Shown piece after piece: positions 1,448-38,092 of a DNA stretch of 49,287 bases. This DNA is from Candidatus Cloacimonadota bacterium (GTDB taxonomy: Bacteria > Cloacimonadota > Cloacimonadia > Cloacimonadales > Cloacimonadaceae). Where the stretch lies: NCBI GenBank assembly GCA_020532085.1, contig JAJBAV010000021.1:1-49287 (forward strand). Direction: 5' to 3'. Every line of letters starts with the position of its first letter. Position 1 is the stretch's first letter. The translations under genes were made by a program, and so were the position numbers. The notes below the pieces were generated by a model. It was not told the origin of the DNA, ran no database searches, and worked only from the letters and a program-made list of their open reading frames with translations.

Positions 1448-1536
1448 GCTCCCAATATCAATACGGTATCAATACGGAATCAATACGGATTTCATCCGTA
1501 ATGATTCCGTATTGATACCGTATTGATATTGGGAGC
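1448..1536. repeat. Long palindromic repeat, copy 1
   Basis: The arms 1448-1490 and 1494-1536 (43 nt each) are inverted repeats separated by TTC, with a single mismatch (A at 1501, where T is expected). Each arm consists of three near-identical 11-bp units (T/A)ATCAATACGG capped by GCTCCCAA. The same element recurs at 28098-28188 and 36582-36670. As RNA it would form a hairpin of about 43 bp from either strand. Confidence 0.95.
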
Positions 1537-17686: not shown

Positions 17687-17706
17687 ACCTCAGCTTACTC
17701 ACTTCC

Positions 17707-17763
17707 CGCACACCTCCGCCACACTTCCCGCCCGCCCGGCGGGTGGTGAGGCGGAGGTGTGCG
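17707..17763. repeat. GC-rich hairpin downstream of the Ntn-hydrolase gene
   Basis: CGCACACCTCCGCC (17707-17720) pairs perfectly with GGCGGAGGTGTGCG (17750-17763); an inner stem CCCGC/GCGGG lies at 17731-17743. No T-run follows on either strand, so this is a REP-like or RNA-stabilising hairpin more than a classical terminator. Confidence 0.75.
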
Positions 17764-17890
17764 TGAGGTGAATGGGCTGGGGCTCGGGGCGGATCCTGGA
17801 TGAAAATATCATAAGAACAAGGGGAAGCGGGCCTGGCGCGGGACCCAACAAAGTACAGTAAACAGCCGGAAACCGGAGTATATAGGATGA

Positions 17891-28097: not shown

Positions 28098-28188
28098 GGC
28101 CCCCAGTATCAATACGGTATCAATACGGAATCAATACGGATTTCATCCGTATTGATTCCGTATTGATACCGTATTGATATTGGGGGCC
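28098..28188. repeat. Long palindromic repeat, copy 2
   Basis: Arms 28098-28141 and 28145-28188 (44 nt each) with TTC between. There is one non-Watson-Crick position (G at 28106 opposite T, a G-U pair in plus-strand RNA). Compared with copies 1 and 3, the T-A pair near the tip of the arm (GCTCCC/GGGAGC) is a C-G pair here (GCCCCC/GGGGGC), a compensatory change that keeps pairing, and the stem is one base pair longer. Confidence 0.95.
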
Positions 28189-28356: not shown

Positions 28357-28794
28357 TCAGAAATCCAGGATGAAACTCACCGGGCCGTCATTGACCAGCG
28401 AGACCTTCATATCCGCGCCAAAAATGCCGGTCTGAACTGGGATCCCGGTTGCGCGGAGCGTTTTTACAAAAGCATCGTAAAGCTTTTCAGCCATTTCCGG
28501 CGCGGCGGCGGGGGTGAAATCCGGCCTGCGGCCTCTACTGCAATTGGCATAGAGCGTGAATTGCGAAACCGCCAGCAGGGCGCCCTGGGTGTCCTCCACC
28601 GAGAGGTTCAGCTTGCCCTTCGCGTCGCTGAACAGGCGCATTTCCCTGATCTTTTTCACCGCGGCCGGAAGGAGGTTTTCCGTGTCGGCGCGGCCAAAAC
28701 CCACAAAGAGCAGCAAACCCGGGCCGATCTCGCCGCAGACCTTTCCCTCCACCTCAACCCGGGCGGAAAGCACCCTCTGAACCAAAACGCGCAT
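28357..28794 (-). CDS. dtd: D-aminoacyl-tRNA deacylase
   Basis: A 145-residue proofreading enzyme that hydrolyses D-amino acids and glycine mischarged on tRNA. It starts MRVLVQRVLSARVEVEGKVC and carries the SQFTLYAN motif. The second active-site motif is NDGPVSF, where nearly all family members have NxGPVTF; serine for threonine is a mild change. Full length. It is last in the mreB-mrdA-rodA minus-strand operon, joined to the lipoprotein gene by an ATGA overlap. Confidence 0.95.
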   Translation of the reverse strand: MRVLVQRVLSARVEVEGKVCGEIGPGLLLFVGFGRADTENLLPAAVKKIREMRLFSDAKGKLNLSVEDTQGALLAVSQFTLYANCSRGRRPDFTPAAAPEMAEKLYDAFVKTLRATGIPVQTGIFGADMKVSLVNDGPVSFILDF

Positions 28795-35121: not shown

Positions 35122-36465
35122 TCATTCCACCCGCGCCACCCTGCGGAAAACACAGCTCTCCCCCACCCGGACCCTGATCAGGTAAACCCCCGCCGCCAAA
35201 GCCTTTCCGTGGCTTTCCCGGCCGTCCCAGGCGATCTCGCGAACCCCCGCGGCAGGCATCACGCCGGTCAAGGACCGAACTTCTCGGCCCCTCAGGTCAA
35301 AGACCGTCGCCTCAAATTCCTGTCCCGCTGGTCCCGTGATCCGCAGATCGGTGCCGGCCGCGAAAGGATTGGGGAAAACTCCCAGCCGGATCATTTCGCC
35401 GCCGTCGCGCACGCCAGAGGCATACCCCGGCTCTTCCGGAAAAAGGTGGAAATCCTGATGGTGCAAGGGCTGGCGGTCCCGTGACAGCACCACCAGTTCG
35501 TTTTGTTTCAGCTCGACGTCCCCGCCGCCGGGATAGAGGGTGCGCGCGGCGAAGAAACCCTTGAACTCCTTGTAGGAAAGCTTGTAGCCGGAACCGATGG
35601 CGGTGCTGCGAAAGAGATAAAGCCGGTCCCCGTCGCTAAGCACAAAATTATAAACCCCGCTCTGGGGATGTGCCAACTGCTGGCGCAAGCCTGCCAGCCC
35701 TTTCTTCAGCCCCGTTAGCGTTTCTCCTTCGGCCGCGGCGATGTGGGCCAGCAGATAGTGGAAAAGCAACTCCGAATCCACCCACACCAGCGGGTCACCA
35801 AGCCCGAAATACTCACTGGGATGGAGTTTGAACCAGTCCGGGTCCAAAGCCCTGATCCCCGCGATCATGAAGTTCCGCGCCCCGCCACACCAGCCGTTGT
35901 GCATGAAGCTAAAGGTCCTTCCCGCGCTGGCAAAGGTGAAGGGATGATTGCCAAAAGTGTGCCCGGAGGCAGATCTGGCGTGGCAAAGCACGATCGCCGG
36001 CTGCATCAGGCCGCCCCGCAATTCCGCCAGCGCCGTGTCCAGAACGTCCCAACCTCCTTGCGCGGAGCTGTCCCAGCCGAAATAGGGCCCGGTGTAGTAA
36101 ACCCGGTTGAAATCCGAGCTTTGCCTCACCCGCTTGTACCAGCGCGCGCTCGGGGCCAATTGCGGATCCCCGGCGGAATAGGCCACAACGCCGTAACCGT
36201 CATTGTTGTAGCCGGAGGTGCTGTTGGTCATCACAAAAGCCAGGTAGTCCCAGGGATCGTCGTAATGCCAGTACAGCGTTCCGGGGCCTTCCGCGGCGAA
36301 ATCGTCCAAGGTGCGGCCCTCCCGGCTGATCAGAGCGCTCATCACGCATCCGGAAAGGGTTTGGGGAGATGCCAACGCTCCCAGCAACAGCAAAAACAGG
36401 CAAGCTCCCGCCCAAACCACCGCCCTGCCTCTTTCCTTTCCGCTACTGATCAGGTTTTCCAACAT
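35122..36465 (-). CDS. Secreted class II glutamine-amidotransferase-like protein with sorting domain
   Basis: A 447-residue exported protein. ATG 36465 with GGGAG six bases upstream is preferred to GTG 36495. After a hydrophobic signal (ACLFLLLLGALASPQTLSGC) the domain begins with Cys40, as class II amidotransferases begin with a nucleophile cysteine. Later come IVLCHARSASGHTFGNHPF and FSFMHNGWCGG, matching the family's arginine and asparagine-glycine substrate motifs (HxR...HPF, HNG). The C-terminus has FPNPFAAGTDL, TVFDLRGREVRSL and LAAGVYLIRV, a sorting domain. LSGC is also a perfect lipobox, so the cysteine's fate is ambiguous. The substrate is unknown; related predicted amidohydrolases act on amides or peptides. 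Confidence 0.78.
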   Translation of the reverse strand: MLENLISSGKERGRAVVWAGACLFLLLLGALASPQTLSGCVMSALISREGRTLDDFAAEGPGTLYWHYDDPWDYLAFVMTNSTSGYNNDGYGVVAYSAGDPQLAPSARWYKRVRQSSDFNRVYYTGPYFGWDSSAQGGWDVLDTALAELRGGLMQPAIVLCHARSASGHTFGNHPFTFASAGRTFSFMHNGWCGGARNFMIAGIRALDPDWFKLHPSEYFGLGDPLVWVDSELLFHYLLAHIAAAEGETLTGLKKGLAGLRQQLAHPQSGVYNFVLSDGDRLYLFRSTAIGSGYKLSYKEFKGFFAARTLYPGGGDVELKQNELVVLSRDRQPLHHQDFHLFPEEPGYASGVRDGGEMIRLGVFPNPFAAGTDLRITGPAGQEFEATVFDLRGREVRSLTGVMPAAGVREIAWDGRESHGKALAAGVYLIRVRVGESCVFRRVARVE

Positions 36466-36581: not shown

Positions 36582-36670
36582 GCTCCCAATATCAATACGG
36601 TATCAATACGGAATCAATACGGATTTCATCCGTATTGATTCCGTATTGATACCGTATTGATATTGGGAGC
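36582..36670. repeat. Long palindromic repeat, copy 3
   Basis: Arms 36582-36624 and 36628-36670 (43 nt each) are perfectly complementary with TTC between. The sequence equals copy 1 except that copy 1 has the single mismatch. It lies 66 bp beyond the pgi stop codon and 117 bp upstream of the start of the gene at 35122-36465 (both minus strand). Confidence 0.96.
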
Positions 36671-36736: not shown

Positions 36737-38092
36737 TCAGCTTTCCTGTTTCCTGTTTTTTTGATACTGTTCGATCTCCGCGCGTTCCTTGTCGAAACCG
36801 GTTTTGCCCATGAGGGCGTAGGTGGCGATCTTGCCGGCTTCCACTCCGGGTTGGTCCAGGGGGTTGATGTGCAGCAGCTTGCCGGTGAAAACTGTCTGGA
36901 TCTCGAACATCATGATGAATTCGCCCAAATGGAATTCGTCGAGGGCGGGAAAGACGATATTGCAGTTGGGGCGGTGGGCCTGGGTGAGGGCGATCTCGGT
37001 GGCGAGGCGTTCGGCGTTAAGGAGTTCAGAGAGTTTTTTGCCGCCGAGGTAGCTGACTTCAGCGCGGTCTGGATGGAGGTTCGGGATGGTGAAGTCGTGG
37101 TTGAAATTCTCAACGCTGAGGAAGGTGAAGACCTTATCGTTCGGGCCTTCGGTGTAAAGCTGCACCTGGGAATGCTGGTCCGTGGTGCCCAGCGCTTTCA
37201 CAGGGGTCTGGCCCACCAGAACTTCGCGGCCCTTCACGTCGTGGCGTTTGCCCAAACTCTCGGCCCAGAGCTGGCGATACCAATCGGCAAGGTCGTAGAG
37301 CGAATTGGAGTAGGGCATCATCACCGAGATGTTTTTGCCCTCGCGCATGTAGAGGAAGTGGAGCAGGCCGTTCAGGTAGGCTGGATTGCTGAAGGTATCA
37401 AGGTTTTCGCAGCGCGAGCGCATGGAAGCGGCGCCGCTGAGGAGTTCGCGGATGTTGATGCCCGCGAAGGCTGAGGAGAGCAGGCCGACGTCGGTGAGCA
37501 CAGAAAAGCGCCCGCCCACGTTGTCTGGCACCACAAAATAGGGATAACCCTCGTTTTTGATCACCTGGCGCAGGAATCCCTTCTCGCGGTCGGTGGTGAT
37601 GATCAGCCGTTTGGTGTAATCCGCGGGATGGCGCCGGCGGATGAGATCGGCCAGGATCATGTATCCGGCCATGGTTTCGGCGGTGGTGCCGCTTTTGGTG
37701 ATCACGTTGAAGAGGGTGGTGTCGAGGTTGATCTGGGCTAGGATCTCGTGGAGGAAAACGGGATCGACGTTGTCGTAAACCAAAACCCGGCGGGGCAGCT
37801 CACGTTCGGTGCGCAGCGCGGAATAGAGGGCCCGGTTGCCGAGGGCGGAGCCGCCGATGCCCAGCACCACCAGAGTGTCGAAGCGGGCATCAAGCCCGGC
37901 CACGAAATCCTCGATGGGGCGAAGGTCATGTTCCGGCAGGTCGTAAAATCCGAGGACATTGGCGTGGCGGTCGGCCTGGATCTCTTCGTGGGCCTGCAGG
38001 CAGGCGTAGTAATAATCCTTGACCTTGGTGGCGGGGATGGCGGTGGGCAAAGCTTCAGAATGCAAAAGGTTGAAATGCTCGAAACGCAGCAT
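36737..38092 (-). CDS. pgi: Glucose-6-phosphate isomerase
   Basis: A 451-residue glycolytic enzyme interconverting glucose-6-phosphate and fructose-6-phosphate, of the shorter bacterial type. Motifs: VVLGIGGSALGNRALYSAL (phosphosugar-binding SIS domain), FNVITKSGTTAETMAGYMIL, GGRFSVLTDVGLLSSAFAG and GTTDQHSQVQLYTEGPNDK. GGAGAG precedes ATG 38092. It is last in the minus-strand operon after ptsI, giving that PTS-related group a sugar-phosphate enzyme. Confidence 0.97.
   Translation of the reverse strand: MLRFEHFNLLHSEALPTAIPATKVKDYYYACLQAHEEIQADRHANVLGFYDLPEHDLRPIEDFVAGLDARFDTLVVLGIGGSALGNRALYSALRTERELPRRVLVYDNVDPVFLHEILAQINLDTTLFNVITKSGTTAETMAGYMILADLIRRRHPADYTKRLIITTDREKGFLRQVIKNEGYPYFVVPDNVGGRFSVLTDVGLLSSAFAGINIRELLSGAASMRSRCENLDTFSNPAYLNGLLHFLYMREGKNISVMMPYSNSLYDLADWYRQLWAESLGKRHDVKGREVLVGQTPVKALGTTDQHSQVQLYTEGPNDKVFTFLSVENFNHDFTIPNLHPDRAEVSYLGGKKLSELLNAERLATEIALTQAHRPNCNIVFPALDEFHLGEFIMMFEIQTVFTGKLLHINPLDQPGVEAGKIATYALMGKTGFDKERAEIEQYQKNRKQES

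Follow-up and report, generated by a model that had tools for sequence, protein, structure and literature searches.

Dispersed palindromic arrays of 11-bp units with genome-specific spelling in Cloacimonadota

Palindromic arrays of the window

The window, i.e., the whole stretch of 49,287 nucleotides analysed here, corresponds to contig C21 in the draft genome (2.81 Mb) of a Cloacimonadota bacterium (G000). It harbours three palindromic arrays, none of which is assigned to a strand. Copy 1 (1448..1536, 89 bp) follows a gene whose product has a secretion-tail domain. Copy 2 (28098..28188, 91 bp) is found between two convergent genes, one encoding an FGE-sulfatase-domain protein (plus strand), the other being the D-Tyr-tRNA deacylase gene dtd (28357..28794, minus strand). 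Copy 3 (36582..36670, 89 bp) is a perfect palindrome located 66 bp downstream of its upstream neighbour, the phosphoglucose isomerase gene pgi (36737..38092, minus strand). The positions and gene contexts that an earlier sequence-only reading had given for the three copies are all confirmed. Genes coding for FlgD-Ig or type IX-like secretion-tail proteins (140-1255 and 35122-36342 in the window) often adjoin copies at many loci, which may be a simple consequence of the abundance of such genes.

The three copies follow a common plan, where each arm starts with GCYCCCAAT (or nearly so), continues with three 11-bp units of the form n-ATCAATACGG and faces the other arm across the central spacer ATTTCAT. 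Copy 1 reads GCTCCCAAT-(ATCAATACGG(N))x3-ATTTCAT-(CCGTAWTGAT(N))x3-ATTGGGAGC, with plus-strand units at 1457-1466, 1468-1477 and 1479-1488, and minus-strand units at 1496-1505 (one mismatch), 1507-1516 and 1518-1527; the proposed spacing of one unit per helical turn is borne out. The innermost minus-strand unit (1496-1505, ATCATTACGG) introduces an A.A mismatch, and the same variant occurs in 37 of about 60 genomic copies. Copy 2 contains a G.T wobble in addition to a T-A to C-G change. The near-perfect palindromes described earlier are real, and the description had overlooked this mismatch and this wobble.

The decamer ATCAATACGG, allowing for up to one mismatch, is found 21 times in the window (2.0 expected; no shuffled sequence reaches 21). 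Eighteen of these matches fall inside the three palindromes, as do all exact decamers, none being isolated. Single strands of copies 1, 2 and 3 fold into one long hairpin with energies of -70.8, -80.1 and -74.7 kcal/mol, respectively (z-scores -16 to -20), and an Rfam covariance-model search of the window returned no matches. A fourth array, likewise not assigned to a strand, was recovered by a motif-free detector (described below) at its loose threshold: a diverged, intergenic palindrome of period 11 bp at 17690..17780 (axis at about 17734), which is composed of a different unit family (CACTTCCCGCA / CACCTCCGCCA) and folds with -72.5 kcal/mol (z-score -10). Its unit CACTTCCCGCA is similar to the unit family of genome G002.

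A genome-wide family with a sharp boundary

A 21-mer spanning two units yields 262 matches in G000 and its reversed control none; the matches listed lie in closely paired arms, and none of those listed brackets a gene as the ends of a full-length, transposase-carrying MITE-type relative would. Recognised by their centre, about 60 near-identical copies, roughly one per 47 kb, are dispersed in the genome, and all of them are located outside called genes; since the genomes considered here are draft metagenome-assembled genomes (MAGs), copy numbers and insertion sequence (IS) junctions are approximate. The initial observation proves real, and its extent exceeds the original description: the anticipated genome-wide family exists, the intergenic location holds throughout, and the objection that the copies might reflect an assembly artefact is answered by their distinct flanks. 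The number of units varies, as one arm comprises four units at locus L055 and two at L081. At L080 an arm has grown to about ten 11-bp units, which run to the end of the contig.

The boundary of the element was analysed in the 47 copies whose flanks are clean. At the Y of GCYCCC the arms show covariation (40 identical, 27.5 expected), and the palindromic correlation between them stops at the GCYCCC edge. Direct repeats of 2-9 bp, at any boundary among the 47 copies, do not exceed expectation, in agreement with the original claim that target duplications are lacking. The target-site duplication that accompanies the terminal inverted repeats of a miniature inverted-repeat transposable element (MITE) is accordingly not seen in these 47 copies, and together with the conserved sites described below the missing duplication weakens a plain MITE reading. 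Outside the edge, the flanks of G000 copies show a weak (A/T)(A/T)CCC preference about 16-20 bp out on both sides and a second weak A/T preference about 30 bp out on each flank, about 11 bp from the first. We read these preferences as a property of the site or context rather than as part of the palindrome.

Gene context, pairing and an RNA reading

Among the 44 copies with both neighbours called, 15 have convergent, 19 tandem and 10 divergent neighbours, compared with 31, 96 and 35, respectively, of 162 background intervals longer than 50 bp at the same loci. Convergent intervals are over-represented among the copies (15/44 versus 31/162), and many copies are situated 4-40 bp behind a stop codon. 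These preferences would suit a structured RNA, which forms a bidirectional 3'-end hairpin or terminator, an mRNA stabiliser or an RNase III substrate for the adjacent genes, and so would the very stable fold of the perfectly or nearly perfectly paired copies (-71 to -83 kcal/mol). Yet, the divergent share of the copies (10/44) equals that of the background (35/162), and an intrinsic-terminator test found divergent positions common and no T-run, i.e., no U-tract, after the arms. Moreover, a hairpin has no need of a sequence period of 11, and an RNA would leave unexplained the phasing of an IS with the units (see below).

The pattern of base pairing bears on the same question. In G000 and G006 the arms are perfectly paired, which is not telling, because identical sites in inverted order must pair. 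For the same reason, the compensatory change in copy 2, originally taken to show that pairing had been kept, does not demonstrate selection for pairing: inverted identical sites are complementary automatically, and hairpin-templated correction gives the same outcome. The genomes G001 (24 copies) and G018 (11 copies) are more informative, as several within-unit positions are non-complementary to their mirror partner and still largely conserved. The mean identity of non-paired versus paired positions, outer edges included, amounts to 0.89 versus 0.97 in G001 and to 0.81 versus 0.95 in G018. Units and phase are thus maintained where pairing is not, which speaks for a site in duplex DNA more than for an RNA hairpin and is compatible with mechanisms based on single-stranded DNA (ssDNA). 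The perfect pairing of most arms would also be explicable by a hairpin-based mechanism, acting on either ssDNA or RNA. Given the divergent copies and the incomplete pairing in G018 and G001, the RNA and terminator functions suggested at the outset are weakened, and we consider them improbable.

Shared sites and concerted evolution among relatives

The unit ending in TACGG occurs in 13 of 50 genomes of one Cloacimonadota family and in none of 75 other genomes of the phylum. A scan of 85 thousand GTDB species produced matches to this unit in Cloacimonadota MAGs only, and scanned viral contigs contained no matches to the element. A first reading of this distribution, that sister species had lost all their copies in a patchy manner, was dropped when some of the genomes in question turned out to hold other unit families.

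Many sites are shared between relatives. Of 20 G010 copies, 9 are located at a gene end that has a copy beside it in the G000 orthologue as well, where a rough calculation predicts about one. The distances to the gene mostly match (e.g., 19/8, 201/201, 18/17, 363/350 and 165/169 bp), and flanking DNA aligns on both sides for the pairs L051/L205 and L072/L131 and on one side for L053/L221. The element at the 3' end of dtd is present in five genomes of the genus, namely the window's genome, G010, G012, G006 and G008. The corresponding region of G002 resembled an 11-bp array by eye and was not called by the detector. Empty-site scars are unreadable between species, where intergenic DNA is too diverged. 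Part of the evidence for site sharing comes from neighbouring genes instead of alignments of the intergenic sequence itself, and favoured intervals may have received insertions independently.

The spelling of the copies follows the host genome rather than the site. G000 copies carry TAT/AAT spacers, and those of G010, G006 and G008 are characterised by GGGATAAATACGG, GTGTCAATACGGACTCA and GGGATCAATACGG, respectively. Within genomes, copies differ at 1.7-3.6 of 71 nt (mean of 1.7 in the G000 family). Between G000 and G010, orthologous pairs differ at 7.4 and all pairs at 7.2 of 71 nt, and therefore, orthology has left no trace in the sequence. Copies at shared sites undergo concerted evolution, such that each species has its own spelling.

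One architecture, several unit sequences

Since the IS end that abuts G000 copies abuts different palindromes in other genomes, a motif-free detector was built, which combines inverted pairing over 40 nt with repetition at a period p of 7 to 16. It was run at two strict settings and a loose one on about 0.7 Mb of DNA, and at every threshold it gave matches at p = 11 only. Positive genomes comprise G000, G001, G002, G004, G009 and G021, as well as G003 with one weak match; 65 kb from four other families and 100 kb of Escherichia coli DNA produced none. The period-11 arrays differ in their unit sequences (CTTAATCAAGC, CATTGCGCGCT, CCGTAACACTT, CATTCCCATAT and CACTTCCCGCT), and unrelated unit families were also recovered from relatives without the TACGG unit. 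The TTAATCAAG unit family accounts for 100 matches in G004, 126 in G020, 46 in G001 and 38 in G008, and for none in G000, G010, G012, G006 and G002. Both this family and the TACGG family are present together in G020 and G008. A core TCAnTnC common to all units was considered and is no more than suggestive: only some families beat shuffled sequences, and the motif was defined post hoc.

Unrelated unit families sometimes occupy one intergenic interval in relatives. Of the 18 G001 TTAATCAAG arrays with both neighbours called, 5 adjoin a gene end that bears a TACGG array in a different species; among array-free intervals of 100 bp or more, this holds for 1 of 46 (Fisher p 0.0055). Both neighbours of G001 arrays L351 and L367 match those of G000 arrays L055 and L038, respectively. 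The common feature across relatives is the architecture, an 11-bp-phased, dyad-symmetric array, which suggests that layout is kept rather than wording. A literature search for this architecture retrieved nothing relevant.

An IS3-family element in phase with the units

The IS beside the arrays encodes two open reading frames matching HTH_Tnp_1 (slightly under the Pfam cut-off) and rve, and this two-frame plan assigns it to the IS3 family. In G000, all seven recognisable left ends of the IS abut a palindrome, with the same IS end each time. Across the family, 26 of 30 sampled left ends abut an 11-bp palindrome, as compared with 9 of 4000 size-matched random windows. Most of these ends lie 47, 58 or 69 nt from the palindrome axis, and a few at other distances between 40 and 59 nt. 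Accordingly, the IS is placed in helical (11-bp) steps relative to the array edge, irrespective of spelling.

The left end TGTNNCGTCCTAAANAAGTTGACAC abuts the palindrome at a fixed offset at the G000 loci L056, L059, L061, L070, L081, L086 and L096, and likewise at L104, at L118 and L170, and at L125, L133 and L165. Two copies, L054 and L071, are bordered at their edge by the end of a second IS (GAGACGCTACC...). Contigs frequently break within the IS3-family element.

REP-like transposition and neutral origins as possible alternatives

The arrays share several features with REPINs, which raises the possibility of a selfish, non-autonomous hairpin with a lineage-own master sequence that is copied as ssDNA by a Y1 transposase (RAYT) or another transposase encoded elsewhere. 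Intergenic, high-copy hairpins of about 90 bp with two inverted arms and without target duplication are typical of such elements, as are low within-genome diversity, lineage-specific sequence and use as an IS target (PMC3116915, PMC1525189), and Y1 transposases are indeed encoded in the genomes studied here. High copy number, intergenic location and homogeneity also hold for the G000 family (about 60 copies, none in genes, 1.7 differences per 71 nt). However, the G000 RAYTs examined closely own different REPs. Two of the seven Y1 genes of G000 lie within 1 kb of copies, and at 27 Y1 loci of nine genomes there is one array per 4.2 kb of non-coding DNA, which is no denser than the genome-wide value of about 4-5 kb. 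The copies thus do not flank a cognate RAYT at L039 or L044, nor does density place them there over the 27 loci. The 11-bp unit, furthermore, is a non-palindromic 11-mer: palindromy exists between the arms only, and the unit forms neither a stem-loop by itself nor a short stem-loop with a foot tetranucleotide, an inverted pair of which constitutes a REPIN. Simple transposition also leaves unexplained how sites are conserved and their spelling is replaced. A REPIN-like origin hence appears unlikely to us, and a resident RAYT as mobiliser is not supported. Given the RAYT-owned REPs and the background density, membership in the REP/REPIN class is not claimed, despite the REPIN-like lifestyle (PMC3116915).

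At L039 (G000 C1:84000-93000) a RAYT gene is bordered on both sides by its own REP family GGTGGCTGAAGCCACCG, and at L044 (G000 C2:75000-83000) another one by CCGGATGAATCCGG.

The arrays might also be functionless relics of an ancestral repeat that expanded once, with hairpin-templated correction keeping the palindromes and ectopic recombination homogenising the copies. The correction of quasi-palindromes is a known mutational process, and the number of units is free to change (four at L055, two at L081, ten at L080), as would result from slippage. Not easily explained in this way are wholly different unit families with an identical period, sites shared between these families and the phased landing of the IS. 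We therefore regard neutral relics as quite improbable.

A proposed phased array refreshed in trans

The most likely mechanism, which we hold with a confidence just short of even, is a putative phased protein-binding array, the copies of which are refreshed in place by a trans-acting factor. Each palindrome would represent a dispersed chromosomal DNA site, in which an 11-bp recognition unit (nATCAATACGG in this genome) is repeated three times in each arm with dyad symmetry. As successive units are one helical turn apart, a multimeric protein would have its subunits aligned along the same face of the double helix, and the row on one arm would meet that on the other at the short central spacer. 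The putative protein might read the units one by one, its occupancy of them being suggested by the phasing; the analysis turned up neither such a protein nor a factor acting in trans. A factor acting in trans would refresh the copies in place, through gene conversion or targeted re-insertion into old copies, and the IS may find its sites through the bound structure or through the palindrome itself. As to a role in the cell, the leading possibilities are that the sites help to organise the chromosome or make gene ends tolerant of insertions.

Out of the four functions originally offered, a multimeric protein-binding site, putative as it is, fits best, because the 11-bp phase survives a complete change of the unit sequence, some genomes conserve units that are not complementary, and the IS inserts in phase with the units.

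Dispersed bacterial palindromes are usually attributed to one system, REPs with their RAYT. Here, position and geometry persist, the sequence is replaced genome-wide, and the geometry is recognised by an IS across genomes whose spellings are unrelated. Two questions become testable, namely by what process bacteria keep dispersed short repeats uniform and how a transposase or host factor can recognise an architecture instead of a sequence. Tentatively, we envisage a class of elements not described before that is defined by geometry and not by sequence: an 11-bp-phased inverted array at conserved sites, the unit "word" of which is rewritten genome-wide, probably through co-evolution with a DNA-binding or copying protein that acts in trans. 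Such a class, if true, would parallel, in bacteria, binding-site systems that evolve fast, e.g., PRDM9 hotspots.

Comparison with known systems

In iteron arrays of the parC type, tandem 11-bp units are read by a multimeric DNA-binding protein, ParR. The tandem 11-bp units are common to both systems, but the arrays described here are dyad-symmetric and dispersed in about 60 copies per genome. The attC sites of integrons form hairpins, conserve architecture over sequence and are homogeneous within a genome, and the arrays resemble them in all three respects. In contrast to attC sites, which are found in a cassette array, they are dispersed between ordinary genes, one per about 47 kb.

The DNA uptake sequences of Neisseriaceae consist of a short motif with species-specific dialects and are often inverted near gene ends (PMC3630211), as are the units here. 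Whereas uptake sequences amount to about two thousand single motifs, the present genomes contain tens of arrays. A DNA-uptake dialect was itself ruled out, since all exact decamers in the 49 kb are confined to the palindromes.

Targeting of REP palindromes has been described for members of the IS3 family (PMC1525189). REP-targeting IS, among them IS1397 and ISKpn1, likewise combine HTH_Tnp_1 and rve and insert specifically at extragenic palindromes. The element described here differs in that it inserts at the outer edge, always with the same IS end and mostly in 11-bp steps from the axis, and does so across genera independently of the palindrome sequence.

REP, BIME and REPIN elements with their RAYT are also dispersed intergenic palindromes, present in tens to hundreds per genome, lineage-specific, homogeneous within genomes, devoid of target duplications and favoured by IS (PMC3116915, PMC2817692, PMC1525189). 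Unlike these, the arrays are built of non-palindromic 11-bp units in phased tandem, and the RAYT genes are flanked by other REPs. Furthermore, spelling is replaced at conserved sites, and one architecture is shared by several unit families.
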